Assembly: GCF_001688725.2 (NCBI RefSeq)
Contig: NZ_CP015401.2
Location: forward strand, 1,612,001-1,676,000
Length of the DNA stretch: 64,000 nucleotides
Direction: 5' to 3'
DNA from: Bacteroides caecimuris
GTDB lineage: Bacteria; Bacteroidota; Bacteroidia; Bacteroidales; Bacteroidaceae
A program made the translations under genes and the position numbers. Below the pieces are notes generated by a model that had not been told where the DNA came from, searched no databases, and saw only the letters and a program-made list of their open reading frames with translations. Positions 45,372 to 64,000 of the stretch are shown one piece after another (the stretch's first letter is position 1; every line of letters begins with the position of its first letter).

Positions 45372-46448
45372 TCATTTGATTGCTTTCTTAATGATTGGAC
45401 AAACTAAATCAGCATATCTCATCATACCTAAATCTGTGAAATGAATACCGTCTATAGTAGCTTCCCCATCTTCTCCCAGCATCTTTTTGGAAGAGATAAA
45501 AAAGATATTCTTTTCATTTTCCTTCTTTAGCCGGTTTAATATCTCCTTTAATGTATCATTCTTTCTTTGCACTTCTTTAGCTATTCTTTCATCATAAAAC
45601 GTATGAGTGAAAATAGGATCTTCTATAAAAACGACTGGCGTATCCGGATGTTTACTACGAATGATACGATAAAAAGTTTCCATCCGCTCTTTCATCTGTT
45701 CTACAGAAGCATTAGGCACAAAGTCTAAAACGAAAACACTAGCATCCACTTCCGCCATGACTCTTGCAACTTCAAGGTCAAGTTGTCCGTTACCGCTAAA
45801 ACCAAGATTAATGCATTCTCGGTTCAACCTTCTTGATATAATATTGGTATGTGCCATTCCGGGACGTGAAGCACAGCCTCCTTGCAGGATGCTGGTTCCA
45901 TAGAATACTATTGGTTTCTCACAAACCGGATAATTAATCTGAGGCTGATCAATGGAAGATAAAGAATCGACTCCTATAGACAGTGACACAAGTCCGTCAT
46001 AAAGAGGAAGATATAGCATATATTCCCTTTCTTTGGGCTGCATATTGGCGATAACGGTAACTTGATTTGTTTTTCCTGTTGGTCGGGCACTGTTGACAAA
46101 TCTCCATTGACCGTTCCCTTCCCAACAATATAAGTCAAGGCCTTTTATTCCCACATCAGTCATGTGATTCATGTGGTTATTAAAAAGATTCTCCCATTTC
46201 AATGCTATTCGGGTAGAGTTACTGCGAAATCGTATCGCCATTCCGGCAGAATTACGACTCAAGTTCCATAGAGGAGGGCGAGAAATGTTTTTGAGAGAAT
46301 CCGGTAGCCTCTCATATCTTGCCCCTGTGTCTTGTGTTGCTTTTCCTAAAAGAGGAAAGCATGACGCATCATAGTACGTCAGTTGTTGTGCCTGCAACTG
46401 AATGCCGAACAGGCACAACATTGTGAAAAAAAAGAATTGTTTCATCAT
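45372..46448 (-). CDS. Secreted SGNH/GDSL-family esterase, right PUL
   Basis: A 358-residue protein with a signal peptide (cleavage near LQAQ). An N-terminal beta domain of about 150 residues is followed by the SGNH hydrolase fold: block I GTSILQGG (catalytic Ser near 185), block II GFSGNGQLD, block III LDFVPN, and block V DGIHFTDLG with the Asp-His pair. Such enzymes remove acetyl or other acyl esters from sugars. It is the last gene of the right PUL and starts immediately after the stop of the phosphodiester glycosidase gene, so the two are translationally coupled. Confidence 0.9.
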   Translation of the reverse strand: MMKQFFFFTMLCLFGIQLQAQQLTYYDASCFPLLGKATQDTGARYERLPDSLKNISRPPLWNLSRNSAGMAIRFRSNSTRIALKWENLFNNHMNHMTDVGIKGLDLYCWEGNGQWRFVNSARPTGKTNQVTVIANMQPKEREYMLYLPLYDGLVSLSIGVDSLSSIDQPQINYPVCEKPIVFYGTSILQGGCASRPGMAHTNIISRRLNRECINLGFSGNGQLDLEVARVMAEVDASVFVLDFVPNASVEQMKERMETFYRIIRSKHPDTPVVFIEDPIFTHTFYDERIAKEVQRKNDTLKEILNRLKKENEKNIFFISSKKMLGEDGEATIDGIHFTDLGMMRYADLVCPIIKKAIK

Positions 46449-47480
46449 CTATTTAATTCCGACAGCGGTCAGCACTTTTCTTTGTTTGCCGTCACTGCCC
46501 TTAATGGTTTCTTTGCCATTGACCAGCATGCATGATGAACCGCCTCCATCCAGATTCAGCGCCTCTGTACATCCCAGGTCTTTCATTACTTTAGCTACGT
46601 TGGCAGTGGTCAGCCCCGCTACTCCTTCTGTCATGTTTCTGCCTTCGCACACAAAGATAATCATTTTTTTGTCAGTTGTTATACCAATTGCGGTGCGAGG
46701 TTGATTGGAAGCAGCAGAAATATCCAACATTTCTTCTACATACGTGTTTTTAATTTCTCCGGCACGCAGTAAAACTGTGACACCTCCGATACCGGTGGTA
46801 GCTTCCAGTGCTTTTGCACCGTTGGGAAAAGTAGATGACGGAGCTTGCAACGGATCCTTATTTATATCGTTATCAGCAGGGGCGGGATAGCAATAATTGA
46901 TTCCATCGGATGCCTGATAAGTCCATGTCGTTTGAAATGTTCCGTCCTTCATCTGGCAGAAGGCTCCTAAAGTCGGATACCACATAGTTACCCAGTCTTT
47001 CGAATAATAGTTCTGATTAGGTGCCAGTATCTGCCCTTCACGGATCACTAGATTTTGCGAATAATAGAATCCGGCACTATAAAAAAACAATCCTCCGTTG
47101 ATGACTACCGGTGCTTTGGAAGATTCATAAAACTCCGAAGGGGTGTATATTGATTTGCTTCCATATCCATTGGCTTCCTGTGAGAAAGCGATGTTGCCCA
47201 GAACTTCAAATTTAGCTTTGCTCATATCTGCAACAGCTATGTAGGCAATCGCCTTCTTTCCCGCCAGATTTTCCGGTGATTTATAGATATGAATATAGTC
47301 CGGAAGATTGCCGAAATTATCGGCTACCGTCCATCCTTGTGATACTATATCAGGATTCGATTCTTCCTCTTCAGTTTCCTGATCCCATTCCCACGGATGA
47401 TCGGGATAGCTTTCTCCACATGAACATATAGAGAAGGCAAGCAGTGCTGTTGCTATAAAATACAGACGTTTGATTAACAT
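46449..47480 (-). CDS. Phosphodiester glycosidase (NAGPA-like) lipoprotein
   Basis: A 343-residue lipoprotein (lipobox FSICSC) with the phosphodiester glycosidase domain known from the human uncovering enzyme NAGPA. Family blocks seen are VINGGLFFY (about 128), PRTAIGIT and MKDLGCTEALNLDGGGSSCM (about 300-320). Relatives cleave the bond between a sugar, often GlcNAc, and a phosphate joined to another sugar. Its presence suggests a glycan with phosphodiester-linked sugars, which is unusual for PULs acting on plant or host glycans. It follows DUF5009 by 3 bp. Confidence 0.87.
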   Translation of the reverse strand: MLIKRLYFIATALLAFSICSCGESYPDHPWEWDQETEEEESNPDIVSQGWTVADNFGNLPDYIHIYKSPENLAGKKAIAYIAVADMSKAKFEVLGNIAFSQEANGYGSKSIYTPSEFYESSKAPVVINGGLFFYSAGFYYSQNLVIREGQILAPNQNYYSKDWVTMWYPTLGAFCQMKDGTFQTTWTYQASDGINYCYPAPADNDINKDPLQAPSSTFPNGAKALEATTGIGGVTVLLRAGEIKNTYVEEMLDISAASNQPRTAIGITTDKKMIIFVCEGRNMTEGVAGLTTANVAKVMKDLGCTEALNLDGGGSSCMLVNGKETIKGSDGKQRKVLTAVGIK

Positions 47481-47483
47481 GAT

Positions 47484-48902
47484 TCAAGTCCTCCAAAAAC
47501 ATTTTAATTTAGTAAATAATATGGTTATTAATAAAGCCAGAGAAGTTACGATGACTCCCCGTAAAAAGCCCAGCCAGGCATTTTGATCCAGATAGGAAAG
47601 ATAGGTTCCCAATCCTGCCAGATTCAATACAGGTAATACTACCAGCTGGGTGGATACGTATGCAATCATCGGATTCTGCCCTGCATATTCCAATGGACGG
47701 GTCAATCGGGACCAAGAATAAATGTCGCACATAATAGAAAATGCAATCATCGCCATAAAGGCAAGTCCCGATGCAAGGAAGTAATAACTGTACGTAGAAG
47801 GATCTTTCCGGATTCCCCCTTCGTATGCTTCAAAAGCCAGCCCTAATAATATCAGATAAGTTCCTGCTCTGAAGAGTTTATACCAATAACCGGTGTTTTT
47901 TCCTTCCACCTGCAAGAGAATGTAGAGAATGCATAGTATAGCGATTGTACCCACTAAATTGAGAACAAGAAAACGCATATAAAGTCCATATAAATTAAAT
48001 ACGATCAGTCCGATAGTCAATAAGAGTATCCATGGCATTCTTTTGCGTTCGTCTTTATTGTCGTTAACGGGTATCGTGCTTTTGCAGTGTAACCACTCGT
48101 GCAGATATTCTCCGGCAATGCTACCGGGAATTACGATAAACAGATACTTCAGATAGGAGAACTTATACATCCACGGCAAGGGCGAGAACGCCATCAGGCT
48201 ATGATTCCATGATTCTGTGTTTTCATTTCCCAGGAACACTGCCATGATAAAAGGCAATATCGCTATACGAATCCATGGCTTATTGATTGTTAGTGTATAA
48301 ATCAGTGAACCGAAAATGGCCATATTAGCCAATACCAAAATGATAATATTACTATAGCTCAGACTGAATGTCCGTCCATCGGCATAGTTGATATTCAGCA
48401 GCATGAACACTCCCGTTGCATAAGCTAGTATCTGAATCAGCATCCTTACGTATTCCGGCATTTTGAACGGAATCCTCATGAACATGGGAAACATCAAGGC
48501 AAAACCTCCCAATGCAATGAGCCATGAGCGGACATCCTGAGGAGAAGATACTACCCACGGATATATATGCTGAATAAAAATAGCGAAGAAAGTCAGCCGG
48601 AAACCTCTTAAAATGCTGTCGTATATCATTCTCCGGCGGGAGCTGCCCTTTCTGTATTTGTTACCTATTGAAAAAGGGAAGGCAGCTCCCATTGCAAACA
48701 GGAAGAAAGGAAACACCAGGTCAACCCAAGTGATCCCATATATAGAACCATCAAAAACAAAGTTGGAACGGGGACCTACCTGGGCATGATACATCCATCC
48801 GGGAAGCACTCCCCAGGCAATGCTGCCGGAGAGAACCATTGTCAGAATGGCATACCCACGCAGGGCATCCAGAGAAGAAGCTCGTGTACTGTTGTTATTC
48901 AT
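47484..48902 (-). CDS. DUF5009 (HGSNAT/NagX-like) membrane acyltransferase
   Basis: A 472-residue integral membrane protein with about 11-12 predicted helices, starting with the SLDALRGYAILTMVLSG segment of the DUF5009/heparan-alpha-glucosaminide N-acetyltransferase-like group. Human HGSNAT moves acetyl across a membrane onto glucosamine; bacterial members are suspected sugar transporters or acyltransferases. Here it probably acts at the inner membrane on a breakdown product of the target glycan. It sits between the sialate O-acetylesterase (14 bp) and phosphodiester glycosidase genes. Confidence 0.87.
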   Translation of the reverse strand: MNNNSTRASSLDALRGYAILTMVLSGSIAWGVLPGWMYHAQVGPRSNFVFDGSIYGITWVDLVFPFFLFAMGAAFPFSIGNKYRKGSSRRRMIYDSILRGFRLTFFAIFIQHIYPWVVSSPQDVRSWLIALGGFALMFPMFMRIPFKMPEYVRMLIQILAYATGVFMLLNINYADGRTFSLSYSNIIILVLANMAIFGSLIYTLTINKPWIRIAILPFIMAVFLGNENTESWNHSLMAFSPLPWMYKFSYLKYLFIVIPGSIAGEYLHEWLHCKSTIPVNDNKDERKRMPWILLLTIGLIVFNLYGLYMRFLVLNLVGTIAILCILYILLQVEGKNTGYWYKLFRAGTYLILLGLAFEAYEGGIRKDPSTYSYYFLASGLAFMAMIAFSIMCDIYSWSRLTRPLEYAGQNPMIAYVSTQLVVLPVLNLAGLGTYLSYLDQNAWLGFLRGVIVTSLALLITILFTKLKCFWRT

Positions 48903-48916: not shown

Positions 48917-50338
48917 TTAATGTATTACGACCCGAAATGGAGAAGCAGGTATTTCTGCATTATTGAAAAGATCACCTTCCATATAATTGCGGAAACAATA
49001 ACGCACTTCTACAGGATGAGGCACCGAATCATTCCATACTTTCACACGGGCAGAACCATTGATTATTTCCGCTTCTGCCGGTACGATATTTCCCTTTTCG
49101 TCTACAAGTTCAAATCCCCTCAACTTTTGATTTTCAGGGATCAGTCCATCACTGCCATGTTCAAAAGTGATTTCTACTACATTCTCTTTCAATTGATGGC
49201 TTTTATACAAAGGACCTGCATACAGAAAACCTTCTTTGCCATAAGTCTTGGCAAGAGCCCAGTAAGCAAGGCGCTGACCGACTTTGATTTTGTAGGGAGG
49301 ATGAATGAATTTTTCACTTCCTGCATCCGTTGTTGTGACCATACCAACATTAGGAACTTCCTGCATTAATTCCAGTTGGCATTGACGGAACCATGCACGA
49401 TCAAGCCTATCTTTACCTTCTGCCTGCCATGGAGTGATCTGGACATAGTATACAGGCATTGCAGGGCTATGAAAGAATTCTCTCCACTGGGCGACCATTG
49501 CGGGAAAGAGTTTTTTATAAAGAGCGGGATCGGCAGAATTGGATTCGCCCTGATACCAGATGACTCCTTTAACCGGAAATCCTTTCCACGGATTTACCAT
49601 TGCATTCCATAATAAAGTAGGTGTGCCCGCAGGCCAGTCGAACTTGGTTTGTCCAATATCCGGTAATTGAACTTCCGAAAATTGGGACAGTGTCTCTTTA
49701 TCCATCCAAGTCTCTATCTTGGAAGCACTCCACGAGCAATGAATCAGTCCGACAGGAATATCCAATGAACGTTGCAGCAAGTCTCCAAAGAAATAAGCGG
49801 CAGCACTAAAGTCGCCGACTTCTTTCGGAGAAAGTTCCGACCAATGTCCCGTAATACCTTCTTCCTTAGGAGTCGTGCTCCAATCTCTTTTGACTGTAAA
49901 CAAGCGTAATTCCCGTTTGGAGTCGGCAGTTACGATATAGGGTTGTGAACCATAAACCGGCTGTCCCCGAAAACCTCTGACTGGCATTTCCATATTCGAT
50001 TGTCCGGAACAGAACCACACTTCTCCCAGTAAGATGTTCTTTAATGTAAGTGCTTCTCCGTCAGAGAATGTAATAGTATAGGGACCTCCTGCTTCCGGAG
50101 TAGGAAGTTGAATATTCCAATTTCCATGCTGGTCACTTCGGGTCGTTAGCTTCCGGTGATTCCATGACGCTTCAATCGTAATTTTACTATTGGCGGAAGC
50201 TTTACCGTGGAAGGTCACTTCCGATTGTTGTTGCAACACCATGTTATCACCCCAGATGGAAGTTAACCTGACTTTTGCCTGCATTCCCAATGGGAATAGC
50301 AGGCTGATAATCCATAGGCGGTATATGATATACTTCAT
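48917..50338 (-). CDS. Sialate O-acetylesterase family protein
   Basis: A 473-residue secreted SASA-family protein with a signal peptide (GMQAKV region). It carries the nucleophile block CSGQSNMEMPV near 114 and the GVIWYQGESNS segment near 260, where the family has its second conserved region. The family removes O-acetyl groups from sialic acids or other sugars such as xylose and pectic units. No sialidase or sialate lyase is in the window, so a sialic acid substrate should not be assumed. It lies between the fused GHL10-phosphoesterase and DUF5009. Confidence 0.9.
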   Translation of the reverse strand: MKYIIYRLWIISLLFPLGMQAKVRLTSIWGDNMVLQQQSEVTFHGKASANSKITIEASWNHRKLTTRSDQHGNWNIQLPTPEAGGPYTITFSDGEALTLKNILLGEVWFCSGQSNMEMPVRGFRGQPVYGSQPYIVTADSKRELRLFTVKRDWSTTPKEEGITGHWSELSPKEVGDFSAAAYFFGDLLQRSLDIPVGLIHCSWSASKIETWMDKETLSQFSEVQLPDIGQTKFDWPAGTPTLLWNAMVNPWKGFPVKGVIWYQGESNSADPALYKKLFPAMVAQWREFFHSPAMPVYYVQITPWQAEGKDRLDRAWFRQCQLELMQEVPNVGMVTTTDAGSEKFIHPPYKIKVGQRLAYWALAKTYGKEGFLYAGPLYKSHQLKENVVEITFEHGSDGLIPENQKLRGFELVDEKGNIVPAEAEIINGSARVKVWNDSVPHPVEVRYCFRNYMEGDLFNNAEIPASPFRVVIH

Positions 50339-50344: not shown

Positions 50345-53020
50345 TTATTTAGAAACGTTTTGCTGATACACTTTACCGAAACGGTCTGTTACTCTGATCT
50401 CTATTTTAGCTTTCGGATTACGGGGAGTGGCGCGGAACATGTGTTCTGTACTTGCTGCTGATATCCAGCTCTGCATGGTGCTTTTCTTGTCTGTACATAC
50501 TTGATGCGCATACGGGTCGACTCCGGTATATTGAGTCATGGTACCCATCACTTTTCCGTTTTCCAGCCATTCTACTTTCCACAGTTTATCCCAGTTCCAG
50601 ACATTGGCAATAATATCTTTGGGGAATTCCTTAGATGTTCCTGCTGCATAGCTTCGAAACTGGTAGTCTTTCGGATGACCGGCACTTTTATAGTACCATT
50701 TCACCTGGTTGCCGTCTACTTCGTAGACTCCGTATCCCTGCGGGGTGCCATCAATGCAGACGTCCGCATGCCACCAGATACCACATACAGCAGCCGTATT
50801 GTGCTCCATTTGGTGATCGTTAAATACAATGTTCGAGTTAGAATGAAGATGGCCCGTCAGGAAGTGTGTTTCATAGCCATCCAATAATTGATGAACCGCC
50901 TCTGCATTGATCGTTTCTCCTGCCAACATGATATAGTCGTAATTAAAAGGTCTTTTCTGTTCCGTTATTCTCGTAGGGATATGCATTATGAAAAAGACTA
51001 ATGTACCTTTAGGGACATAAGACAGATCTTCTTCCAACCATTTGAAAGTAGTTTCATCTACATAGCCGATATAGAAGTATTCACGTCCTACATAAAAGTT
51101 GTTGTTGATAACAATATAGTGGGCATTGCCTTTATTGAATGAGTAGTGGGTAGGGCCGAAATATCCTTCGAAAGTCCGGTACGACGTTTCATGAGTAGCT
51201 CCATTATAATTCATATCATGATTACCGATTGCACGATATATGGGGATATCCAATTTCTTTGCCTTATCGATATAAGGTGGAAAAAAAGTAGCTGGTGTGT
51301 CCCAAAAGAGGTCTCCACAATTCAGACCGAATACATCACGATCCGAATATTGATTGATCAACTGTTTGTAGTCATCAATGATGGGAGCGTACAGATCCCA
51401 ATGCTCTTTCAGACCGGCTTGCACATCCGCCTCCAGCACAAACAAGTGTTTATTGTCGTTTTTAGGATTCTTCTTCAGACGGAAATTATACTCATTCGTC
51501 TTGTTCAGATCAATTTCCTGATAGAATCGGGGAATCGTTTGTTCACAATCCGTCAAGTATCCGGCAGGAGTCGTGATATATACAAAGCGTGTGTTTCCGA
51601 GATTGGGCAGATGGTAAATACCGTTCTTGTCTGTAGTGACACAACGCTGTCCGTCTGTCACTACCACATTGGCTATACCTTTGCCATCGCAAGTAACGGT
51701 TCCTTTGATCATTCGCGCTTCATCCAGCTTAGTTTCGTCCAGTGCTTCTTTTAGTTCGTCCCACCATCCGTTGCGGATAATGTGTACAATGTCGAAAATC
51801 ATCACACCGTCCGATTCTTTCAAGTTCATACGGACTGCTTTCTGGAATTGGTTTACATCCCGTTTGTAGTCTTCCACATACAGACCGCCGCATACAGGCA
51901 CCGCATCTTTCAGCAAGTATTTGGAATATTTGCAACCGCCTTCTACACATAAATATTCTCCGGTAGAAAACTCGCTGTCTGTTTCATTCTTAAATTTACC
52001 GGAAGATTTATAATAATCATCCAGCGTTACATTCCAGTAGTAATTGCCATTTGTATAGAAATCCAGTAACTCTGCAAAGCCATAATTCTTATAGTCAGGA
52101 GTAGCCCAATTGAAGTCCTTGCTGACATCATAATTGCGGCTTGCCCAGTTGACACCTACCTCAAAGTAAGTGGGATACCATGCACCTGTATAAGCAGCCA
52201 ACATACATTCCGGCTTTATCTTTTTGATGGAAGTACGTACGTCTTTTATAAAGTTATATATAACAGAAGCTCTCCACGTCAACCATTGATGATAGTATGG
52301 ACCACCCACGCGGTCTATGCCTCCTTCAGCATTAGGGCGCCACTCAAAAATATCCTCCGGAAACTTCTCTACTTTCTTTCCGATGAATTTCTCAAACATC
52401 TTCTTTGACTCAGGAGAAAAGTCCGAATCAATACAATCATATCGTGCACGATCAAGCATAATGCCGTCAAATGCATAATTCCGGACAACTTCTTTGATCA
52501 CATCAATCTCATACTTCTGCACCTCTTTCAGTGCCGGATTCAGGAACATGGTAGGCTTTCCTTCTATTTCCGTTACAGGAAGCAGTCCTTTGCGCGGTAC
52601 ATAATTGATAGCCTGCCACTTTTTGTGTTTATCGAAGATGTCGCCACGTTTCACGATATTCTGTCCGTCAGCAAATATATTCATTCCGGCAAAGATGACC
52701 ATATTGCGGGCATGGGCAGCTTCGATAAAGGTACCGATAAAGTCAAAATCCGGACGGTCGAAGTTTTTCCAGTTCTTTTTCTGTGCGGCATATTTGCTGG
52801 GATATAATACTTCACCCGTATTGTCTTTTATATCCAATACCAGATGCGTGATACCTGCTTCATGGCATTTGTCTACATAGTAGCGAATTGAATCGGGGTA
52901 GCTGAAGCGTTGGAAATTGGCCGAACAGTCTAACCACATTACTTTTGGCTTTCCTGAGGCAAATGCTAGAATGCCTATCCATAATAAAAGGGAGATAATT
53001 GAGAATCTTTTCATATTCAT
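50345..53020 (-). CDS. GHL10 glycosidase-like domain fused to a calcineurin-like phosphoesterase
   Basis: An 891-residue secreted protein with two parts. Residues 25-425 form a GHL10 (family-10 glycosyl-hydrolase-like) TIM barrel: MWLDCSANFQRF, HLVLDIKDNTGEVLYPS, GIMLDRARYD, and FDIVHI at its end. Residues 440-510 resemble the beta-sandwich that precedes calcineurin-like phosphoesterases in Bacteroides (KGTVTCDGKGIANVVVTDG). Residues 525-780 are the phosphoesterase, with the metal-binding blocks LNCGDLFWD, AIGNHDMNY and FLTGHLHSNSN, and a C-terminal domain follows. One chain joining a sugar-cleaving fold with a phosphate-cleaving one supports a phosphorylated glycan target. An inner start, ATG 53014, is possible. 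Confidence 0.88.
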   Translation of the reverse strand: MNMKRFSIISLLLWIGILAFASGKPKVMWLDCSANFQRFSYPDSIRYYVDKCHEAGITHLVLDIKDNTGEVLYPSKYAAQKKNWKNFDRPDFDFIGTFIEAAHARNMVIFAGMNIFADGQNIVKRGDIFDKHKKWQAINYVPRKGLLPVTEIEGKPTMFLNPALKEVQKYEIDVIKEVVRNYAFDGIMLDRARYDCIDSDFSPESKKMFEKFIGKKVEKFPEDIFEWRPNAEGGIDRVGGPYYHQWLTWRASVIYNFIKDVRTSIKKIKPECMLAAYTGAWYPTYFEVGVNWASRNYDVSKDFNWATPDYKNYGFAELLDFYTNGNYYWNVTLDDYYKSSGKFKNETDSEFSTGEYLCVEGGCKYSKYLLKDAVPVCGGLYVEDYKRDVNQFQKAVRMNLKESDGVMIFDIVHIIRNGWWDELKEALDETKLDEARMIKGTVTCDGKGIANVVVTDGQRCVTTDKNGIYHLPNLGNTRFVYITTPAGYLTDCEQTIPRFYQEIDLNKTNEYNFRLKKNPKNDNKHLFVLEADVQAGLKEHWDLYAPIIDDYKQLINQYSDRDVFGLNCGDLFWDTPATFFPPYIDKAKKLDIPIYRAIGNHDMNYNGATHETSYRTFEGYFGPTHYSFNKGNAHYIVINNNFYVGREYFYIGYVDETTFKWLEEDLSYVPKGTLVFFIMHIPTRITEQKRPFNYDYIMLAGETINAEAVHQLLDGYETHFLTGHLHSNSNIVFNDHQMEHNTAAVCGIWWHADVCIDGTPQGYGVYEVDGNQVKWYYKSAGHPKDYQFRSYAAGTSKEFPKDIIANVWNWDKLWKVEWLENGKVMGTMTQYTGVDPYAHQVCTDKKSTMQSWISAASTEHMFRATPRNPKAKIEIRVTDRFGKVYQQNVSK

Positions 53021-53037: not shown

Positions 53038-54360
53038 TTACTTCAGAGCTCCTCCGGCTCTCATTCCGTTTTCAACTTCTTTCCATAATCCTTTGTTGAT
53101 GATATGTACAATGTCGAATACCATCAGTCCGTCGGAATCTTTCAGGTTCATTTCTATGGTTGCGGATAATTTGGCGGGATTGTCATAGAATTGATCCACC
53201 AGAATACCACCTATAAATTTATTATCTTTCATGATATTGCGTAGTTTCTGACAAGAACCTTCAACGGAATACCACGTACCGCTTTGTGCCTGTGAATCTG
53301 TTTCGTTCCATACGCTCTTTTTGTTTTTCAGGGATTCTTCGATGGTGATATCGGTATAATAATTGCCGGTAGTATATAAGTCCATCAGTTCGGCATAACC
53401 GTAATTCTTATATTCGGAAGTAGCCCAGTCAAAATCTTCGCTCGGATCGTACTTCTTGCTCGCAAAGTTTACGCCTACTTCATAATAAGAAGGATACCAT
53501 GCTCCGGTGTATGTACCGAAAGAAATATCCGGATTCACTTTCTTTACTTCATTTCGGGCACGCGCCATGAAGTCGTAGATGTTCTTGGTGCGCCATTCAA
53601 TCCATTTTAAGAAATGTTTTCCGCGTTCGGGATAGTATTTATCATCCTCGTCCTTTTTCCATTCGAAGATGTCTTCCGGAAACTTTTCTACTTTCTGTCC
53701 GATATACGCTTCGAACTTCTGACGGGAGAGGTCTGAAAAGTCTGCCGTTATACCATCATAGCGTACACGGTCCAGCACCAATCCGTCCAAATCGGGATAA
53801 CGTTTCACTAAATCCTTGAGAACATTCAATATATGTGTCTGAAACTCCTCATTGACAGGATTAACCATTGCCGAATATTTCTTCTTTTCGTTGGTGATGG
53901 AGGTGATTCCTTCCGGAGTGTATACTGTCGATGCCCATTCAGGATGCGTGGAATAGACTAATCCACGGTCGAAATAATTGTGTCCTGCGACAAAGACGTT
54001 GAGGGAAGCATGTACCTCTATTCCCAGTTCATGGGCTTTTTGGATGAAATGCCCTAAGTAATTGAAGTCTTTGCGTTCATATCCATGCCATTCACGCATT
54101 TTAGGAGCAAACTCCGTATCGAACAGCACTTCTCCGGTGATGGGACGTACATCGACGATAGCATGGGTGAAACCTAATGATTTTATTTTTGTCAGATAGT
54201 AATCAATGGAGTCAGGATTGCTAAAACGTTCAAAGTTTGCTTCCGCATCAAACCACATCAAAGCGGGCTTGCTATTTTCCACTTGGGTAGCCGAATTTTT
54301 GCATGCTCCAAATGTAATGATTAACAGACTTGATAAAAGTGCTATTGTTATTTTTCTCAT
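53038..54360 (-). CDS. GHL10 glycosidase-like lipoprotein, second of three
   Basis: A 440-residue lipoprotein (lipobox ITFGAC) made of the GHL10 barrel alone. The same landmarks as the other two copies are present: MWFDAEANFERF, HAIVDVRPITGEVL, GLVLDRVRYD, SFGTYTGAWYPSYYEVG and FDIVHI. Acid residues in VLDRVRYDG are candidates for catalysis. Its landmarks resemble the GHL10 part of the fused protein at 50345 more than the copy at 54394. I used ATG 54360, since the frame upstream to 54387 lacks a signal sequence. Confidence 0.88.
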   Translation of the reverse strand: MRKITIALLSSLLIITFGACKNSATQVENSKPALMWFDAEANFERFSNPDSIDYYLTKIKSLGFTHAIVDVRPITGEVLFDTEFAPKMREWHGYERKDFNYLGHFIQKAHELGIEVHASLNVFVAGHNYFDRGLVYSTHPEWASTVYTPEGITSITNEKKKYSAMVNPVNEEFQTHILNVLKDLVKRYPDLDGLVLDRVRYDGITADFSDLSRQKFEAYIGQKVEKFPEDIFEWKKDEDDKYYPERGKHFLKWIEWRTKNIYDFMARARNEVKKVNPDISFGTYTGAWYPSYYEVGVNFASKKYDPSEDFDWATSEYKNYGYAELMDLYTTGNYYTDITIEESLKNKKSVWNETDSQAQSGTWYSVEGSCQKLRNIMKDNKFIGGILVDQFYDNPAKLSATIEMNLKDSDGLMVFDIVHIINKGLWKEVENGMRAGGALK

Positions 54361-54393
54361 ACGATCATATTCTAATGTGTTGGTCATTCTTTT

Positions 54394-55770: not shown

Positions 55771-55794
55771 TTTATACGACTTAATAGTTGAAGT

Positions 55795-55829
55795 AAGAAG
55801 CCTGTACCTGAAAGAGGTACAGGCTTCTT
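55795..55829 (-). promoter_or_regulatory. Intra-operon hairpin between the SusCD block and the enzyme genes
   Basis: AAGAAGCCTGTACC and GGTACAGGCTTCTT are perfect 14-bp arms around a 7-nt loop. On the minus strand it lies 16 bp after the DUF5018-like stop and 25 bp before the first GHL10 start. It lacks a U-run, so it may protect the 3' end of a processed SusCD mRNA rather than stop transcription. Confidence 0.7.
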
Positions 55830-55844
55830 GCATAAAGATGGTAT

Positions 55845-57512
55845 TTACATGTCGATACAGTCGCACTGTACACAACCTACATATCCATTGCAGAACATGA
55901 AGTAGATGTACATATAATAACCGTCATCTGAAACTTTCAATACTACATCACCACAATAATTACCGTTTGTGTTTCCAAGAATCTTAGACCCATAGTTTCC
56001 ATTGATTCCCAGACCGGTACTTCCGAAGTCAATAGCCTGAGTTCCTAATGAACCTGATGAAAGATCGAACACGTATATGTTGTCAGCAGTTCCCCAACTC
56101 CATGGATTTACCAGATTTGAAGCTACATATTCCACCTTATTAAATACAGCATGATCAACTGCATTTGGTACGTAGTTTCCATCAAGTGCCACTCCCTTGT
56201 TCTTGATTGAATTGGTTTTTCCATCCATCCAGCATAGGTTGCGTGGTTCGGCATAGAATGTAGTAAAATAATCACTGGTCGGATCTGTCGGATCAGAGTA
56301 AATGACATCGGCATTTGTTCCCCAGCCACCTATTCCTTGTGCTGTAATAATATCCGGCGTCTGTGATTTAAGTACACCATTTTCTACCTGCCAACGGGCA
56401 AACTGTCCTGAAGTAGCATAGATAGGAGCGGTTATAATAGCATTATTGTTCAGACTGCCAGATACTGACAGTTTTCTACCCATAGCCAGTGAAGTAGTAA
56501 ATTCTATGTATTTTTCCGGTGCTTGGTCTACTCCCGAGGCTTTCCATACGGTAAAGGCTGGTCCAGCATTTGGAGTCAGATTCGTGAACAGGATATTACC
56601 GTCCTTGTCTGATGTTGTATAGAAGTTTGTCAGACTACCTGCAAAACTAATATTCATTGTCCCTGCTTTTTCTCCATTCTTGGCGTTCAGGTATATAGGA
56701 TTTTTGGCGCGTTCATTAATAACTACATAATCATTTGTTACAGCAATACCAGTTGTCATATCAGAACTTGAAATACCTATGTCTGTAAGTTTCTTAGCCC
56801 AAAGCAGTTTAGCACTGTTGGCACGGATCCCTGCTGCAATCTTTTCCGGGATTTCTTTCTTGACTGTATACGTAGACTTAGTTGTGCCGTTTTGTGCGGT
56901 CACGGTAATTTTCTGGTCTTGGTCGTAATTCAATGCGACTGTTCTTGGATCAGGCGAGATCGTTGCTCCGTGAGAGATCGATACATCTGCTAATACTTCA
57001 CCTATACTTTCCAGGCTAATCAGAGAAATCGTTTTGGCATTTTCGTTGATTATACCTGATAATCCCAAACTTGTAAGATTGAACTTCGTGATTGTACACT
57101 CATTACTTTTACGGATTTCTGCCACAACTTTATATTCGGTACTTGTGCCGGTCTGGTCTTTCACTGTTATAAAGTTATCCTTCGTCATATCCATAAATAA
57201 TAATGTAGGATATACATATACATTATTGTCCAGATCAGCAATCACACGCATTTTTTTCAGATCAGACAGTTGCAGGACATTGTCCGAAAGTTGGGGATAG
57301 TTATATGGAAATACAACGGTAATCACATGATTGGTATAATCTATCTCACTGGTGAAACTATTGTCATCACTGTCATCATCGGGGAAGGATGCAGTTAAAT
57401 TATTGATGATGTTCCTTTCAACAGTCGGATTGAATTCTTCAGGGCTATGGCATGCGCTTATACCCATCAGAAACGCAATGACTGAAATAATTGATAATAT
57501 TTTATTTTTCAT
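55845..57512 (-). CDS. DUF5018-like surface glycan-binding lipoprotein
   Basis: A 555-residue lipoprotein (lipobox GISAC). About 230 residues of Ig-like modules of the DUF5018 type (TASFPDDDSDDNSFTSEIDY..., ITVTAQNGTTKSTYTVKK) are followed by about 320 residues of beta-rich sequence that may be a propeller-like sensor or binding domain. It ends CVQCDCIDM, an unusual Cys-rich tail. It follows SusD by 16 bp, where surface glycan-binding proteins are usually encoded. The substrate is unknown. Confidence 0.8.
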   Translation of the reverse strand: MKNKILSIISVIAFLMGISACHSPEEFNPTVERNIINNLTASFPDDDSDDNSFTSEIDYTNHVITVVFPYNYPQLSDNVLQLSDLKKMRVIADLDNNVYVYPTLLFMDMTKDNFITVKDQTGTSTEYKVVAEIRKSNECTITKFNLTSLGLSGIINENAKTISLISLESIGEVLADVSISHGATISPDPRTVALNYDQDQKITVTAQNGTTKSTYTVKKEIPEKIAAGIRANSAKLLWAKKLTDIGISSSDMTTGIAVTNDYVVINERAKNPIYLNAKNGEKAGTMNISFAGSLTNFYTTSDKDGNILFTNLTPNAGPAFTVWKASGVDQAPEKYIEFTTSLAMGRKLSVSGSLNNNAIITAPIYATSGQFARWQVENGVLKSQTPDIITAQGIGGWGTNADVIYSDPTDPTSDYFTTFYAEPRNLCWMDGKTNSIKNKGVALDGNYVPNAVDHAVFNKVEYVASNLVNPWSWGTADNIYVFDLSSGSLGTQAIDFGSTGLGINGNYGSKILGNTNGNYCGDVVLKVSDDGYYMYIYFMFCNGYVGCVQCDCIDM

Positions 57513-57528: not shown

Positions 57529-59160
57529 TTATTTCCATTCATCATATTGCTCAATTAACGCATTATTCTTTATTTCAGAAGTCGGCACCGGTAAAACGTA
57601 TAACTTCTGTGGGAACTTACGATCTTGTCCGTCGCAATCAATGTATTCGTACGTACCGTTCGTAATCTTAAGACCATGGCAGCGATAGTTGTTATATTCA
57701 ATGTGTGCCAGTCTCCAACGGCGCATATCCCAGAACAGATGTCCTTCGTATGCAAGCTCAATCTTACGTTCGTTGCGATAATCATTGAACCATGCTTCAC
57801 CACTGGAAGATTTGCCCGGCAGATTTACTCCCTGACGTCCGCGGACGCGATTCATTAAGGACTGTGCTTCAGTGGTTTTGTTAAGTCTGTATGCTGCCTC
57901 AGCCTTATTCAACAGAACTTCGGCAAATCGGATTTCTACCCATGCCTGAGAACTTTTGGTTCCTTTGACGTCAATCAGTTTCTCATCCAACAGTTTACGC
58001 AGGAAGTAACCGGTTGTTGTTTTACCATAGGAGTATGACTGTTCACGATAAGCCATGAAAGCACCGTTTGTTCCACCTACGCTACAATCCATCACTCTGC
58101 CTTTCCACGTACAGCCACGATAAATAATAGTAGCCGCAAAACGAGGTTCCAACTGATCATAAGGAGGTTCTTTGGTGGTAGTGCCGTGCCATTCGGACCA
58201 GTCTACTTTATTTCCGTTTTTATCTTCATAAGATTCTACCATTTCCTGTGTCGGAGTACCTAGTGCACCAAAGTCGTAGCCGTCACATTGAGGGACGTAA
58301 TACTGGTCGAAGGTATGATTCGGACCACTGTCTTTATTGTAGTCAAATTCCAGAATTGCTTCTTTATTGTTGCCTTTCCAAGCATCTGCATAGTTGTCCA
58401 TCAAATCATACAACTGTAACTTTTCTACTTCATCAGCTGCATCATAAGCATCCTGCCAACGCTCAGCATATAGCATAGCACGTGATTTCAATGCGTAAGC
58501 CGCACCTTTTGTCACCCGTCCTTTGTTTGCTGCATCCCATTCTTTAGGAAGATTGGTTGCCGCAAAATCCAGGTCATCTGCAATGAATTGCCATGTTTCC
58601 GCTGCCGTGCTGCGTGCTTTGTCGTTAGAGGTAGGGAGATCGTCATACAAAATGACTCCGCCATGCCGTTTGGCTAACTGAAAATAAACATAAGCACGGA
58701 AGAAGCGTACCTGAGCTTCCCATTTCAGATTCTTGTCATCTGAGAATGTAGAGTATTTCTTCTGCATAACCAGAAACTGATTCATCTGGCGGATATTGCC
58801 ATAAGCCAAATCCTTATCCCAAATGTTGTAACGGCATCCGTCCGGACTGATAACATCCGGATTAGTTACGTAGTTGTTCGGATGTCCGGCTCTGTCTCCT
58901 AAAGCTACTGAACCGTATTTGAATGTCTCGGTCAAACTTTCCGTTAAACTTCCCGAGAACTGGGCTTCACCAAATTGTCCGTATTTGTTTAGATATGTGT
59001 AGAATGCATTGACGTATTTATCCACGTATGCTTCATCTTGCCAAACAATTTCATCACTAACGGTCGAAGTTTGCTTCACACCGTCCAGCCAGTCATTGCA
59101 CGAACTTATACTAAAGCCTAGTGCCAGTGCTAATGATACATTTAATAATATTTTTTTCAT
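57529..59160 (-). CDS. SusD-family glycan-binding lipoprotein, right PUL
   Basis: A 543-residue SusD protein with a lipobox (SISSC near residue 21), an N-terminal VSDEIVWQDEAYVDKYV helix typical of the family, and C-terminal ELAYEGHLFWDMRRW and YVLPVPTSEI blocks. It pairs with the SusC 13 bp upstream. It is clearly related to the left PUL's SusD at 40937 but well diverged. Confidence 0.95.
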   Translation of the reverse strand: MKKILLNVSLALALGFSISSCNDWLDGVKQTSTVSDEIVWQDEAYVDKYVNAFYTYLNKYGQFGEAQFSGSLTESLTETFKYGSVALGDRAGHPNNYVTNPDVISPDGCRYNIWDKDLAYGNIRQMNQFLVMQKKYSTFSDDKNLKWEAQVRFFRAYVYFQLAKRHGGVILYDDLPTSNDKARSTAAETWQFIADDLDFAATNLPKEWDAANKGRVTKGAAYALKSRAMLYAERWQDAYDAADEVEKLQLYDLMDNYADAWKGNNKEAILEFDYNKDSGPNHTFDQYYVPQCDGYDFGALGTPTQEMVESYEDKNGNKVDWSEWHGTTTKEPPYDQLEPRFAATIIYRGCTWKGRVMDCSVGGTNGAFMAYREQSYSYGKTTTGYFLRKLLDEKLIDVKGTKSSQAWVEIRFAEVLLNKAEAAYRLNKTTEAQSLMNRVRGRQGVNLPGKSSSGEAWFNDYRNERKIELAYEGHLFWDMRRWRLAHIEYNNYRCHGLKITNGTYEYIDCDGQDRKFPQKLYVLPVPTSEIKNNALIEQYDEWK

Positions 59161-59173: not shown

Positions 59174-62100
59174 TTAGAATGTTAGTTTTACACCTAGCGT
59201 ATATGTTCTCTGTTGCGGATAATAACCATTGTTCACTGCCGGTGATTCCGGGTCGATGTTGTATTTGGTAAGTCCGCTGAAGGTCAACAGGTTATATCCT
59301 TCCACATAAAGTCTTAGTCCTTCTATGCCTGCCGGATTCAACCACTTTTTCGGGAAGTTGTAACCTATCTGTGCAGTCTTCAAGCGCATATAGTTACCAT
59401 TCCTGTACCAGAAAGTTGAAGAGTATCCATTGTTGTTGCTCGGACCTGTGATTTCCAGACGTGGAAATTCCGCGTTAGTATGTTCAGGTGTCCATGAGTT
59501 CTCTACCAGGAAAGTCGGTGAGTTTCCACCATGATAGAAAGGCTTCGTAAATGAAGTATTATCTTGTGTACCTTCAGAACCGACAGATGTATACTGGCCT
59601 GTCAGTGCAACTACATTGCCCAATCCCCAAGAGAATAATAAGTCAAAGTCAAATCCTTTCCAATTACCGAATAAATTCAAAGAACCGGTATGTTTCGGAG
59701 TAGCACTTTTGCCTACATAACCTTGGTCTTGTGCCGCTGTAATAATACCATCACCATTTCTGTCTACATACTTAATGTATCCCGGCAATGCCTTATAACC
59801 TTTAACTGTTGCTGAATTTGCAATCTCTTCTTCGCTCTGGAACAGACCATTTGCGATAAAACCATATTTAGAACCGATTTGCTTTCCTGTCAAACGCTGA
59901 TATTCAGGAGCATTGTCGGAGTCGCCTACATACTTCAGCCAACGGCCGTATGCATACGACCAGATCAACTTGGCACCATAATTAAACTTGTTGATATGGT
60001 TATAATGAGTCAAAGTAACGTCGAAACCTTTATAATCAGTCTTGTTCACATTGCCGGAACTGAAATAATATCCACCTCTTGAAGGCGCGTATGCTCCGGT
60101 CACAGTGGCAAGTTTATCATATTCATATTTATAGAATACGTCAAATTCGACTCCTAACAAACCATTCCACATCGTTGCATCGACACCGACATTATAGTTC
60201 AGGCACTGTGCCCACGACAAGTTGGGATTACCTAATACGGAAGCATACATCATGGTCTGACTGCTGCCGCCAATGACAACTGCATTTTTGATAATTCCCA
60301 TTGTATTTCTCCATTGGAAGGCACTTACGCCGCTGGTAGCTGTTTTACCAATACCGGCTCTCAGTTTCAGATTATTGACCCAGGGAGCATTGAACCAACT
60401 TTCATTGTTGAGTCTCCAACCTGCAGAAACACCGGGCAATGTTACCCAACGTTTATTCATACCTCCAAACAGATAACTACCATCGTGACGAAGAGAAGCC
60501 TCCAAATAATACTTATCATCATAATTATAGTTCACACGACCTACGAAACCTGCCACTCTGGTATGTCCGCTATATCCTCCGATAGAGGGGAATTTTTCGG
60601 CTCCGTTTCCTGTCTTATTCGTGATCTGATTGAGTTCATCCAATTGGATAAAGTCCAGCCCATAACCGGTAGCACTTAACGCATTACTCTTGTTTTCACG
60701 GGTTTCTGCCAGGAACATAGCTCCTACAGCATGTTTCCCGAACTTATTGTCATACGTCACACTTGACTGTGTGGTGAATGTATATCCGCGCGAAGCAGAT
60801 TCACTCAGGCTGATTGAATTGCCCGATGCATCAGTGCCTTTATAATAAGTTAATGAAGTGCTTTCAATAGTTGGAAGATTCATGATCATTACTTCATAAG
60901 GATTGCTGAAAATCTTGCTGAAGTTATATGTCAGGTCATAAGCCCCTTGAAATTTGAAACTTAATCCTTTCAGCCAAGGTGCGTCATATTTCAGACTGAA
61001 ATTGGACTGGATATAGGAATAGTTGGATTTGCTGTATCCGGATTCATTGATAGATGCCACCGGAGCTATCGGAGAGGAAGCCGTCGGAGTGGATACATTG
61101 TATGTTTTTCCTTCATACTCGTACGTATCAGGTACGTAAGGCAGGGCACGAATGATTTGTTGCGGAACATTATGCCAAGCATTCGGATCGGCAGAATAGC
61201 GCGGCGAATCTCTTTTCTCAATACGGCCGGATACTCCTAAAGTGAAGGTGAGGCTTTTGGTTAACTTTGCATCGATATTGGAACGAAGATTCAAGCGGTT
61301 GTAGCCATAGTTGTCTATGTTACCATTCTCATTCAGATAGCCGATGGATGCAAAGAAACGCACTCTGTCGCTACCTCCGGTTGCTGAAATGTTATGGTGT
61401 GTACGAGTACCGGTGCCATATAGCTTATCATACCAGTTTGTGTTTCCCCAACCGTCAACTCCGTCTTTCATCTTCTGCACCATCTCTGCTGTAAATACCT
61501 GAGAGTCTCCTTGCAGTTCGCGTGCTTTATTATACCAATAAGCATAACTGGGTCCATCCAGCCATTCCTGTTGTTCCGCATTCTGGCTGAAACCGACAGA
61601 ACCTGTATAAGTGATAGACATCTTTTCTGCCTTACCCTGTTTCGTAGTAACGATGAAAACACCATTGGCGTCCAAACCGTAAACGGCTACCGCCGAAGCG
61701 TCTTTCAGGATAGATACCGATTCTATTTCGTTAGGGTCCAGTCCGTTAAAGTCGGCTGATGTACGGCGGATTCCATCAATTACGTATACAATGCCCGTTT
61801 GTCCGCGCATGGTCAATGTTGCGTTGTCAGATCCCGGCTGACCACTGGATTGTACAGCTGCCACACCGGCAATACGTGAGCCAACTACGTTACTGATACT
61901 CATTGTCGGAGCTTTCAGCAATTCTTTGTCCGATACGGTAGAAACTGCTGCGGTGATGCTTCCACGTTTTTGAGTACCGTATCCCACAACAACTACTTCA
62001 TCCAGCGAAGCAACATCATCTTTCATAGTTACTGAAATGAAACGCTGGTTGTTTACTTTGATGTCCTGTGTATTCATGCCAACATAAGAGAATATCAATA

Positions 62101-62320
62101 CATCATTATTTCGGGCATTGATACTGAACTTTCCATCCAAGTCTGTGATAGTACCGCTGGTTGTACCTTTTACAGTTACAGATACTCCAGGTAATGGTTC
62201 GCCACTACCATCATTGACTGATCCTTTTATTACGTTTTGTGCCATACAATTGAGTGTGCACATGAACGCAATAAATAATGAGGTGATAAACCTCGGATTC
62301 CATTTGATTCTTTTTTTCAT
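59174..62320 (-). CDS. SusC-family TonB-dependent outer membrane transporter, right PUL
   Basis: A 1048-residue TonB-dependent receptor. A signal peptide (cleavage near CMAQ), a carboxypeptidase-regulatory-like domain (GSVNDGSGEPLPGVSVTVKG), the VVVVGYGTQKRGS region, plug and barrel are all present, ending in VKLTF. Same general architecture as the left SusC (37800) with many substitutions, so the two loci probably take up related but different oligosaccharides. It starts 22 bp after DUF4434. Confidence 0.96.
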   Translation of the reverse strand: MKKRIKWNPRFITSLFIAFMCTLNCMAQNVIKGSVNDGSGEPLPGVSVTVKGTTSGTITDLDGKFSINARNNDVLIFSYVGMNTQDIKVNNQRFISVTMKDDVASLDEVVVVGYGTQKRGSITAAVSTVSDKELLKAPTMSISNVVGSRIAGVAAVQSSGQPGSDNATLTMRGQTGIVYVIDGIRRTSADFNGLDPNEIESVSILKDASAVAVYGLDANGVFIVTTKQGKAEKMSITYTGSVGFSQNAEQQEWLDGPSYAYWYNKARELQGDSQVFTAEMVQKMKDGVDGWGNTNWYDKLYGTGTRTHHNISATGGSDRVRFFASIGYLNENGNIDNYGYNRLNLRSNIDAKLTKSLTFTLGVSGRIEKRDSPRYSADPNAWHNVPQQIIRALPYVPDTYEYEGKTYNVSTPTASSPIAPVASINESGYSKSNYSYIQSNFSLKYDAPWLKGLSFKFQGAYDLTYNFSKIFSNPYEVMIMNLPTIESTSLTYYKGTDASGNSISLSESASRGYTFTTQSSVTYDNKFGKHAVGAMFLAETRENKSNALSATGYGLDFIQLDELNQITNKTGNGAEKFPSIGGYSGHTRVAGFVGRVNYNYDDKYYLEASLRHDGSYLFGGMNKRWVTLPGVSAGWRLNNESWFNAPWVNNLKLRAGIGKTATSGVSAFQWRNTMGIIKNAVVIGGSSQTMMYASVLGNPNLSWAQCLNYNVGVDATMWNGLLGVEFDVFYKYEYDKLATVTGAYAPSRGGYYFSSGNVNKTDYKGFDVTLTHYNHINKFNYGAKLIWSYAYGRWLKYVGDSDNAPEYQRLTGKQIGSKYGFIANGLFQSEEEIANSATVKGYKALPGYIKYVDRNGDGIITAAQDQGYVGKSATPKHTGSLNLFGNWKGFDFDLLFSWGLGNVVALTGQYTSVGSEGTQDNTSFTKPFYHGGNSPTFLVENSWTPEHTNAEFPRLEITGPSNNNGYSSTFWYRNGNYMRLKTAQIGYNFPKKWLNPAGIEGLRLYVEGYNLLTFSGLTKYNIDPESPAVNNGYYPQQRTYTLGVKLTF

Positions 62321-62342: not shown

Positions 62343-63416
62343 TTATAGAATAAAGTGTTCACAATATCGTTCGTATAAGTGACCGGCTTGCAGATAAGCC
62401 GAATTAGGGCTCATGAAATGAGAAAACTCAAACGTGATTGCATTTTCCATTCCCGCTCTTCGCGCAGCGTCCAGTTTCAACAATAGCTTTTCCCATTTAA
62501 TGGGCAGGAAACGAATGGGCATGTCCCGGTCAAAAGATTCGATATTGGTCCAGCATTTCATATTATATTTATCAGCCAGTTTTTTGTTAATAACCAGATA
62601 ATCATATAATTCATGATAGTCTACCTGACCATCCTGAAATGCCATGATATCGACTGCTCCCTTTACATTATCCAATATTTCGTCCCATTCTTCTTCGTGT
62701 TCTTTCACTGACAAAGCTTTGTCGCCCGCCATAACCTGGTCTGTCTTCACTCCATGTATGTATGGAGAAACTAAAGTTGTCAGATTGCCGGAGACACTCT
62801 TGGCGTGCTTTCCGACTTCCGCATAAATCTTAGACATGTTTTTCGTCCGGCGGCTGATTTCCTGAGATAAATACCATCCCTGGAAAGATTTATGATGACC
62901 ATATTTCTTCCATACTTCATCAATCAGAGCCATGTTCAAGTCTATTTCTTTCTGAAATAATCCTTCCTGCCAGTACTTCCCGGAATCGTACATACCAAAA
63001 TAGAAAGCCATGTCGTATTTATCGGCCAGTGTCAGAAACATTTCGACCAGGTCTACAGGAGGATAATACACATCTTCTTTTCCCAGCAGGCATTGAAAAG
63101 GAGAAGCAATCCATTTACCAAGACCGGCACGAATCAACACTACGGTATTGATTCCCATCTTTTTCATGGCTTTAAAATCCTTATCCCATTCTTTTGTACC
63201 CCAATTCTGATGCGGAATATCCCAACTGATTTCGTCTAGAAAAGTTGCTTTTATGGGCATCCCTTTCAAGGCATTGGGAGTGACAAATGTCTCAAATATT
63301 TCTTCTTTGCCGGATGCTGTCCTTTTGGTGGGAGTGCATGCCGTCAGAAGTTTGCTGCCTGCTAGCAATGAACATGTGGCAAATGCGGTTTTTAGAAAAT
63401 TACGTCGTCCTTCCAT
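62343..63416 (-). CDS. DUF4434-family TIM-barrel protein, right PUL
   Basis: A 357-residue exported protein with a GRRNFLKTAF start and a lipobox-like Cys (LLTAC). It shares LDEISWDIPHQNWG, YFGMYDSGKYW, SFDRDMPIRFLP and FEFSHFMSP with its left paralogue. Divergence between the paralogues is far greater than between the two epimerase genes, which is why the epimerase similarity needs a separate explanation. Its ATG lies 22 bp after the epimerase stop. Confidence 0.84.
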   Translation of the reverse strand: MEGRRNFLKTAFATCSLLAGSKLLTACTPTKRTASGKEEIFETFVTPNALKGMPIKATFLDEISWDIPHQNWGTKEWDKDFKAMKKMGINTVVLIRAGLGKWIASPFQCLLGKEDVYYPPVDLVEMFLTLADKYDMAFYFGMYDSGKYWQEGLFQKEIDLNMALIDEVWKKYGHHKSFQGWYLSQEISRRTKNMSKIYAEVGKHAKSVSGNLTTLVSPYIHGVKTDQVMAGDKALSVKEHEEEWDEILDNVKGAVDIMAFQDGQVDYHELYDYLVINKKLADKYNMKCWTNIESFDRDMPIRFLPIKWEKLLLKLDAARRAGMENAITFEFSHFMSPNSAYLQAGHLYERYCEHFIL

Positions 63417-63438
63417 ATCGTTTTATTTAAATAAGGAG

Positions 63439-64000
63439 TTACAAATTTTCCAAAACTTTCCAGCACTGATACAATCCTCTTGGCACATGGAAACATCCTT
63501 TCCATTTTCCTCCTTTAAGTGGCAGCAAGACTTCTCCTCTTCGATTCAGATATCCATACCATTCAGAGTATTCTTTATCCTTGAAATGTCCCCACGTGTA
63601 GTCATGTACTTTCTCAAACCACTCCAGGCATTGTTTGTCTCCCGTTAACTGATAACCTTTCAATAGAGAAATAAGCGTCTCAATATGCACCCACCAGAGT
63701 TTCTGATCCCACTCCAATTGTTGGGGCGGACAACCATTGCGGTCCATAAAGTAATAAATGCCGCCGTACTCTTTATCCCAACCATAATTGAGCATGGTAA
63801 GGGTGGTGTCTTTAGCTTTCTCTATCAATTCCGGACGGTTCAGGCGTTTGCCTAGGTCCATGATAAACCACATGGCTTCAATGGCATGCCCCGGAGTTAC
63901 CTGACGACCTTCAAAACAATCCACCAGATTACCGTCGATATCTACGTTCTCAACTATGATCCCACCAAGTTCGGGACGGTAAAAAACGTCCATTACTTCA
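63439..64000 (-). CDS. AGE-family epimerase, right copy, 5' part beyond the window
   Basis: The last 187 codons of a second AGE epimerase are visible; the frame is open to the window end. It keeps PGHAIEAMW and WWVHIETL. It ends LENL, four residues shorter than the left copy's LEDLMNYK. In DNA it differs from the left copy at about 4 of 260 positions in its first visible part, about 8 percent in the next 100 and more at the 3' end, a gradient typical of a recombination tract edge. Confidence 0.9.

Follow-up and report, generated by a model that had tools for sequence, protein, structure and literature searches.

Cwp19 of C. difficile and DigH of E. coli are peptidoglycan enzymes that cleave glycan strands, and published work on Cwp19, a peptidoglycan lytic transglycosylase, places a GHL10 domain in it (PMC6016235). 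Related domains are encoded in a polysaccharide utilization locus (PUL) of Bacteroides caecimuris, operon B, located in a 64,000-nucleotide stretch of DNA (the window; bases 1612001-1676000 of a home genome consisting of a single 4.84-Mb contig). Unlike Cwp19 and DigH, the window proteins represent a DUF4985-defined variant within a SusCD operon and occur in three copies, one of which is fused to a phosphoesterase. By eye, the FDD motif of Cwp19 has its second acidic position substituted in these proteins, which read DG..LD..R. The C-terminal domain of PgaB, a hydrolase of deacetylated poly-N-acetylglucosamine (dPNAG), is matched in fold only, at 13% identity, and PNAG synthesis genes were not seen in operon B. 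This PgaB domain belongs to glycoside hydrolase (GH) family GH153.

Operon B also encodes a predicted NAGPA-type phosphodiester glycosidase, which shares the PRTA.G and NLDGGGS region with mammalian NAGPA (the human uncovering enzyme) and with 3ohg, a BACOVA-type DUF2233 protein (E 2.6e-14 to 3ohg and 2.5e-06 to 6pki), while alignment by sequence is limited to the C-terminal half. Its DUF4434 protein is homologous over residues 50-355 to PDB 4h41 (BT_0435; E 1.7e-118); "putative alpha-L-fucosidase" is the depositor's label for this entry, for which we know of no activity. The epimerase of the B. fragilis nanLET pathway resembles N-acylglucosamine 2-epimerase (AGE). That sialate pathway is reported to use an N-acetylmannosamine (ManNAc) epimerase (title of a reference in PMC4747158). 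Operon B differs in having no NanL; the NanL-like gene of the home genome is in another PUL.

PULs are well known and every domain in operon B has been named, but the set as such is an uncharacterized combination. No paper on GHL10 in polysaccharide utilization, on a Bacteroides phosphodiester glycosidase, on DUF4434 or on BACOVA_00430 was found in the open-licence PMC literature, outside of which others may exist. Our favored reading, to which we give an even chance, is that operon B serves as a PUL targeting an O-acylated glycan that is rich in N-acetylhexosamines, contains ManNAc and N-acetylglucosamine (GlcNAc), probably has sugar-1-phosphodiesters and comes more likely from a bacterial envelope or exopolymer than from the host.

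Gene content and predicted functions of operon B

Operon B comprises 12 genes on the minus strand (45372-64000), and its upstream end runs past the right edge of the window. From first to last, the genes encode AGE, DUF4434, SusC, SusD, DUF5018, GHL10a, GHL10b, GHL10c-phosphoesterase, SASA, DUF5009, NAGPA and GxDLY-GDSL proteins. Intergenic gaps are only 0-22 nt, so the genes likely form a single operon. The one overlap (31 nt) depends on the start codon; the probable start of GHL10a is codon 36 of the listed TTG open reading frame (ORF), at about 55770, where by eye a lipoprotein-like signal begins. A promoter and terminator scan at the end of the operon gave counts at chance level. The locus qualifies as a PUL, having an adjoining SusC/SusD pair and glycan-active enzymes in the same operon. 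Every gene listed by an earlier reading made from the sequence alone (three GHL10 proteins, NAGPA, a phosphoesterase domain, SASA, an SGNH esterase, DUF5009, DUF4434 and a 2-epimerase) is present and passes its Pfam cut-off; to that list we add SusC, SusD and DUF5018, and the epimerase gene is completed beyond the window (L003:439-1605).

The three GHL10 domains (PF02638) score above the cut-off (E 1.7e-20, 4.7e-19 and 2.7e-19), each is followed by DUF4985, and the fold of a characterized member was recovered. In the structure search that the sequence-only reading had proposed as a check, the GHL10-DUF4985 part of the predicted GHL10c model was closest to Cwp19 and also matched PgaB, and its phosphoesterase part matched GpdQ. 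Fold matches to GH29, GH42, GH156, GH164 and beta-amylase were taken as general TIM-barrel likeness, and no activity was assigned from them. Carboxylates are conserved in these predicted strand-cleaving proteins. Ten of 48 candidates were excluded from the conservation count as having too little match to the GHL10b query; one of them (L035:6749-8203) is a phosphoesterase without GHL10 that matches Metallophos itself.

The GHL10c phosphoesterase (MetallophosN E 6.1e-26, MetallophosC E 1.2e-47) keeps the GD...D, GNHD, MHIP and GHLH motifs, with ADVQ as the first motif. The NAGPA domain (PF09992; E 3.6e-26) contains the conserved NGG.F, PRTA.G and DGGGS motifs, and the protein is 98% identical to those of two uncultured Bacteroides metagenome-assembled genomes (MAGs) and 88% identical to that of B. 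faecis. An acidic stretch past its lipobox, noted by eye, would fit surface export. Pfam cut-offs were also passed by SASA (E 3.8e-20), GxDLY (E 7.3e-51), Lipase_GDSL_3 (E 5.6e-74), DUF5009 (E 1.2e-77), DUF4434 (E 1.3e-74) and the portion of the GlcNAc 2-epimerase inside the window (E 1.5e-51). AGE exceeds the NCBIfam equivalog cut-off for N-acylglucosamine 2-epimerase (731.4 vs. 600 bits) and scores far under those for cellobiose epimerase and mannose isomerase. SusC belongs to TIGR04056 (859.5 bits; cut-off 368.25). DUF5018, encoded directly after SusD and with a lipoprotein-like start, may be a surface glycan-binding protein; its predicted model is weak (mean pLDDT 61.7, 7 sequences).

From these assignments we infer the substrate, protein locations, order of steps and all enzymatic activities of the following scheme. 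The SusD and DUF5018 lipoproteins would bind the polymer, a surface NAGPA lipoprotein would cut GlcNAc-1-phosphodiester bonds, GHL10 lipoproteins would cut the glycan chain, and SusC would take in the oligosaccharides. In the periplasm, the SASA and GxDLY-GDSL esterases would strip O-acyl groups and the phosphoesterase domain of GHL10c would remove phosphate or glycerophosphate, while DUF5009 may re-N-acetylate free glucosamine. Monosaccharides would then enter via a sugar porter like the one encoded in the neighboring locus A, and AGE would convert ManNAc to GlcNAc.

Distribution of the gene set and the source of ManNAc

Counting the home genome, a GHL10b relative (E<=1e-60) was found in 19 of 80 genomes of the genus and DUF4985 in 6 of 296 genomes of the phylum (>=90% completeness). 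The core of the set occurs in Bacteroides, in another family of the class and in Sphingobacterium. Twenty-four loci with DUF4985-type GHL10 were tallied by hand from a domain table, which for the home genome extended 3 kb past the window edge and merges adjacent matches to the same family, making its GHL10 numbers too low. Most contained SusC or SusD (n = 20), DUF5018 (n = 18), NAGPA (n = 17), phosphoesterase (n = 16) and DUF5009 (n = 16), followed by SASA (n = 11), AGE (n = 10), GDSL of this type (n = 8), DUF4434 (n = 8), GH20 (n = 5) and sialidase (n = 3). NAGPA and phosphoesterase were found together in 14. With AGE genes just beyond the fetched stretch in five more loci (G046, G059, G017, G021 and G330), the AGE count becomes 15/24. 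Several of the loci stop at contig ends, and they are non-independent, as B. pyogenes is represented twice (G034 and G077) and G058 contributes two. The tally omits G049 and G054, for which no 20-kb stretch was retrieved, and L005, L006, L007, L010 and L011, which duplicate contigs already included, come from one more near-identical MAG or are of insufficient length.

Two distant genomes carry a lone GHL10-DUF4985 gene and no PUL (L058 and L059); that in L058 (8176-10956) directly follows a phosphohexomutase-family gene. In G059, an ADP-ribosylglycohydrolase-family gene is inserted in the PUL (L039:6879-8465), and the Sphingobacterium version with its ROK gene adjoins genes for a Gfo/Idh oxidoreductase and a 3-keto-disaccharide hydrolase (L012:15281-19957).

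A second related PUL in the window, locus A (30490-42976), encodes ROK, FAD oxidoreductase, DUF4434, sugar porter, AGE, SusC and SusD proteins. Judged by assigned domains, loci of its type and of the operon B type share one gene repertoire. In G330, from another family of the same class, one locus (L060) combines FAD oxidoreductase, SusC, SusD, DUF5018, GHL10, NAGPA, DUF5009 and DUF4434, with AGE just upstream, and in G005 a locus-A-type SusC/SusD lies beside GHL10, NAGPA and phosphoesterase. Well-populated fusions likewise join members of both loci as identified by their domains, which were confirmed separately for the fusions named here; counts are of member sequences. GHL10-DUF4985 is fused to SASA (P0055, 6781 members), an FAD oxidoreductase (P0045, 87), a second GHL10-DUF4985 (P0008, 55) or a YdjC/ChbG-type domain (P0056, 1), and the phosphoesterase to DUF4434 (P0028, 363), a CE2-type esterase (P0025, 2) or GxDLY-GDSL (P0037, 1). 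A few other partners, with domains unconfirmed, occur in single-member proteins such as P0039, P0062 and P0063.

The origin of ManNAc was assessed by a search for NanL-like proteins (E<=1e-40) in 24 genome entries representing 23 distinct genomes (G034 = G377), two of which (G295 and G320) carry only a lone GHL10 gene. NanL-like proteins were missing in 15 of the 23; among the 21 genomes that have the set, 13 lacked them. Weaker matches of 24-29% identity were also listed, as expected for DapA-type proteins. A full AGE was found in or beside the locus in eight of these 13 (S. composti, G330, G059, G017, G046, G005, G039 and G030). Among the remainder, G058 has an AGE piece at a contig edge and, being 71% complete, says little by its lack of NanL, and B. 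faecis has no AGE. The presence of the set with AGE and without NanL in eight genomes indicates that ManNAc there is probably not derived from sialic acid, and AGE in these genomes probably serves, most simply, ManNAc from the glycan itself. At a threshold of E<=1e-60, AGE was found in seven of ten genomes checked and was missing from B. faecis, G295 and G320. The putative AGE proteins of Sphingobacterium are 55-56% identical.

Candidate substrates

The combination of O-acyl esterases, hydrolases of the type acting on GlcNAc polymers, NAGPA, a diesterase-like phosphoesterase, a possible glucosamine N-acetyltransferase and an epimerase for ManNAc argues for an amino-sugar polymer that is acylated and contains phosphodiesters. 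Peptidoglycan with its teichoic acid linkage unit combines all of these traits, and capsules containing phosphodiesters of ManNAc or GlcNAc are equally possible targets; the evidence fits capsule, teichoic-type polymers and other amino-sugar polymers alike. The sequence-only reading had proposed an undescribed PUL for an acylated, phosphodiester-containing glycan. The conserved set, the fusions, the kept motifs and the AGE score support the uncharacterized PUL and the acylated glycan, while the phosphodiester part, which relies on two family assignments, is plausible.

Several observations weigh against the favored reading. NAGPA is missing in 7/24 loci and phosphoesterase in 8/24, so phosphodiester chemistry is not universal across them. 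Enzymes acting on many other sugars, including a GH156 sialidase, match the TIM-barrel fold as well, and we have come across no DUF4985 protein with a substrate or activity. The DUF5009 protein scores far below the NCBIfam NagX equivalog cut-off (31.7 vs. 480 bits). B. faecis has the operon without AGE, and in B. reticulotermitis AGE consists of two pieces only. In the home genome, an adjoining sialidase/GH2/GH20 operon suggests a host glycan.

The boldest candidate, a specific version of the favored reading that we nevertheless consider unlikely, is that this gut Bacteroides locus, with its Sphingobacterium relatives, is dedicated to Gram-positive wall glycan, namely peptidoglycan strands and the linkage unit of wall teichoic acid. 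That unit is ManNAc-GlcNAc-1-P-MurNAc (MurNAc, N-acetylmuramic acid). NAGPA would cut the linkage phosphodiester, the GHL10 proteins the strands and the esterases the O-acetyl groups of MurNAc, whereas DUF5009 would re-acetylate deacetylated glucosamine, the GpdQ-like domain would take glycerophosphate and AGE would use the linkage ManNAc. The closeness of the GHL10-DUF4985 fold to a lytic transglycosylase agrees with this, and wall chemistry offers a matching bond for each enzyme class. The lone GHL10-DUF4985 genes would fit a DigH-like role in the cell's own wall, and one report describes bacterial-surface calcineurin-NAGPA fusions and suggests teichoic acid for such phosphoesterases (PMC11488536). 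Wall feeding is, however, disfavored by the lack of a MurQ above the cut-off in the home genome (32.2 vs. 302 bits), as well as by the lack of an amidase or peptidase in operon B and the departure from the FDD motif.

It is also doubtful that operon B is an accessory locus for host sialo- or N-glycans. It would then work with the divergent operon just right of the window (L003), which contains a sialidase-type gene, GH2 and two GH20 genes, followed by dnaJ and grpE on the opposite strand; SASA would remove sialate O-acetyl groups and AGE would convert ManNAc derived from sialic acid. A similar sialidase/GH20/GH2/GH20 group adjoins the GHL10 locus in G030 (L044), sialidase and GH20 lie beside it in B. 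pyogenes, and the home genome has a NanL-like gene elsewhere. However, the home-genome sialidase gene is split, with its two ORFs lying in different frames (L003:2381-3902; unsplit relatives of 543-547 aa occur in L009, L010 and L044), Sphingobacterium loci carry the set without sialidase, and NanL is missing from most genomes with the set. No N-acetylneuraminate lyase, the mark of a Nan sialate locus, was found in the operon B locus; the family (PF00701) occurs in two places in the home genome, neither inside the window. Sialate use as the main role was rejected, as neither NanL-like genes nor sialidase follow the distribution of the set. The sequence-only reading had recognized no established GH or polysaccharide lyase (PL) and allowed that a canonical GH in the then unseen 5' part might explain the locus. 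Pfam and NCBIfam matches confirm that operon B has no classical GH or PL, but GHL10 is known from Cwp19 and canonical GHs are present in the adjoining operon. That operon is divergent, and since only 3/24 related loci have a sialidase and 5/24 a GH20, these neighbors do not explain the set. The NanL-like gene itself is in a PUL (L055; G000:C1:2684001-2700000) with a sialidase-like gene, a transporter, SusC and SusD and without AGE.

Family names may also mislead, such that the target is an ordinary non-phosphorylated glycan and the NAGPA-type protein, phosphoesterase and epimerase serve other roles or another sugar, which we judge improbable. Sequence searches connect the DUF4985 subfamily to solved structures only through weak Cwp19 matches, proteins of the NAGPA type abound (at least 4966 matches at E<=0.001 among 8000 candidates scored), and some related loci contain GH97 or GH20 genes. 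Against this, NAGPA and phosphoesterase co-occur in more than half of the loci with motifs kept, and AGE is separated by curated cut-offs from cellobiose epimerase and mannose isomerase. A PNAG-like biofilm exopolysaccharide, partly deacetylated and O-acylated and cut by PgaB-like GHL10 enzymes, is very unlikely, as the PNAG structure accounts for neither NAGPA, phosphoesterase nor AGE. Phosphorylated mannan, another target named by the sequence-only reading, was rejected because nothing in operon B points there and nothing was found beyond the neighboring GH2 gene.

Locus A, feature coordinates and implications

The 3' part of the MFS gene and AGE of locus A recur in inverted orientation at operon B (Table 1), and their 97.5% identity points to recent copying or conversion. 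An MFS gene remnant persists upstream of the operon B AGE, outside the window (L003:1738-2301; 93% identity to the locus A transporter over 40%), and a third DUF4434-MFS-AGE-SusC-SusD set is found elsewhere in the home genome (L056). A transposase (DUF772/DDE) lies between the two PULs at 43261-44952.

Four TTTATTAATAAA-like palindromes, possible ROK operators, lie at 31741-32006, where the ROK and FAD genes of locus A diverge, and the window contains six matches vs. 0.96 expected. A ROK operator common to both loci was rejected, as no TTTATTAATAAA site within one mismatch was found in L003, upstream of operon B. Of seven other loci scanned, L043, L040 and L049 had one each and four had none.

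The second NAGPA-type gene of the home genome (29-33% identity) is in L004 (G000:C1:10000-24000), where its neighbors encode a GDSL esterase (69% identity to that of operon B), SASA, a GH27-like melibiase, DUF4855 and DUF6259.

Table 1. Features of operon B and locus A in window coordinates.
Feature	Position	Strand	Basis and remarks
ROK-family regulator with helix-turn-helix (locus A)	30490..31698	-	Pfam, NCBIfam
FAD oxidoreductase, PF12831 (locus A)	32012..33907	+	Pfam
DUF4434 (locus A)	33952..35049	+	Pfam; 55% identity to operon B copy
Sugar porter, MFS (locus A)	35052..36461	+	Pfam, NCBIfam
Inverted repeat, 3' part of MFS gene and AGE	35958..37739 = 63457-65238		1782 bp, 97.5% DNA identity
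AGE (locus A)	36591..37769	+	Pfam, NCBIfam; 97.7% identity to operon B AGE
SusC-like (locus A)	37800..40922	+	Pfam; 39% identity to operon B SusC
SusD-like (locus A)	40937..42577	+	Pfam; 40% identity to operon B SusD
125-aa protein (locus A)	42599..42976	+	No Pfam match
GxDLY and SGNH (Lipase_GDSL_3) esterase, last gene of operon B	45372..46448	-	Pfam; YGTS, DFVPN, DGIH motifs
Predicted NAGPA-type phosphodiester glycosidase	46449..47480	-	Pfam, motifs; lipoprotein-like start, acidic stretch (by eye)
DUF5009 membrane protein, distant NagX relative	47484..48902	-	Pfam, NCBIfam
SASA-type carbohydrate O-acetylesterase	48917..50338	-	Pfam; GQSN, D..HP motifs kept
GHL10c, GHL10-DUF4985 fused to MetallophosN/calcineurin-type/MetallophosC phosphoesterase	50345..53020	-	Pfam, fold
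GHL10b, GHL10-DUF4985	53038..54387	-	Pfam; lipoprotein-like start
GHL10a, GHL10-DUF4985	54394..55875	-	Pfam; lipoprotein-like start; probable start about 55770
DUF5018 lipoprotein-like protein	55845..57512	-	Pfam
SusD-like protein	57529..59160	-	Pfam, NCBIfam
SusC-like TonB-dependent receptor	59174..62320	-	Pfam, NCBIfam
DUF4434 protein	62343..63416	-	Pfam; RR-containing lipoprotein-like start (by eye)
AGE, cut by window end	63439..64000	-	Pfam; completed in L003:439-1605

If true, the favored reading would give a role to the linked domains DUF4985, DUF5018 and DUF4434, a physiological setting to bacterial NAGPA-type enzymes, and Bacteroides a possible route for feeding on the amino-sugar polymers of other bacteria. 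It would also caution against reading sialic-acid use from the mere presence of an AGE-type epimerase in Bacteroides.

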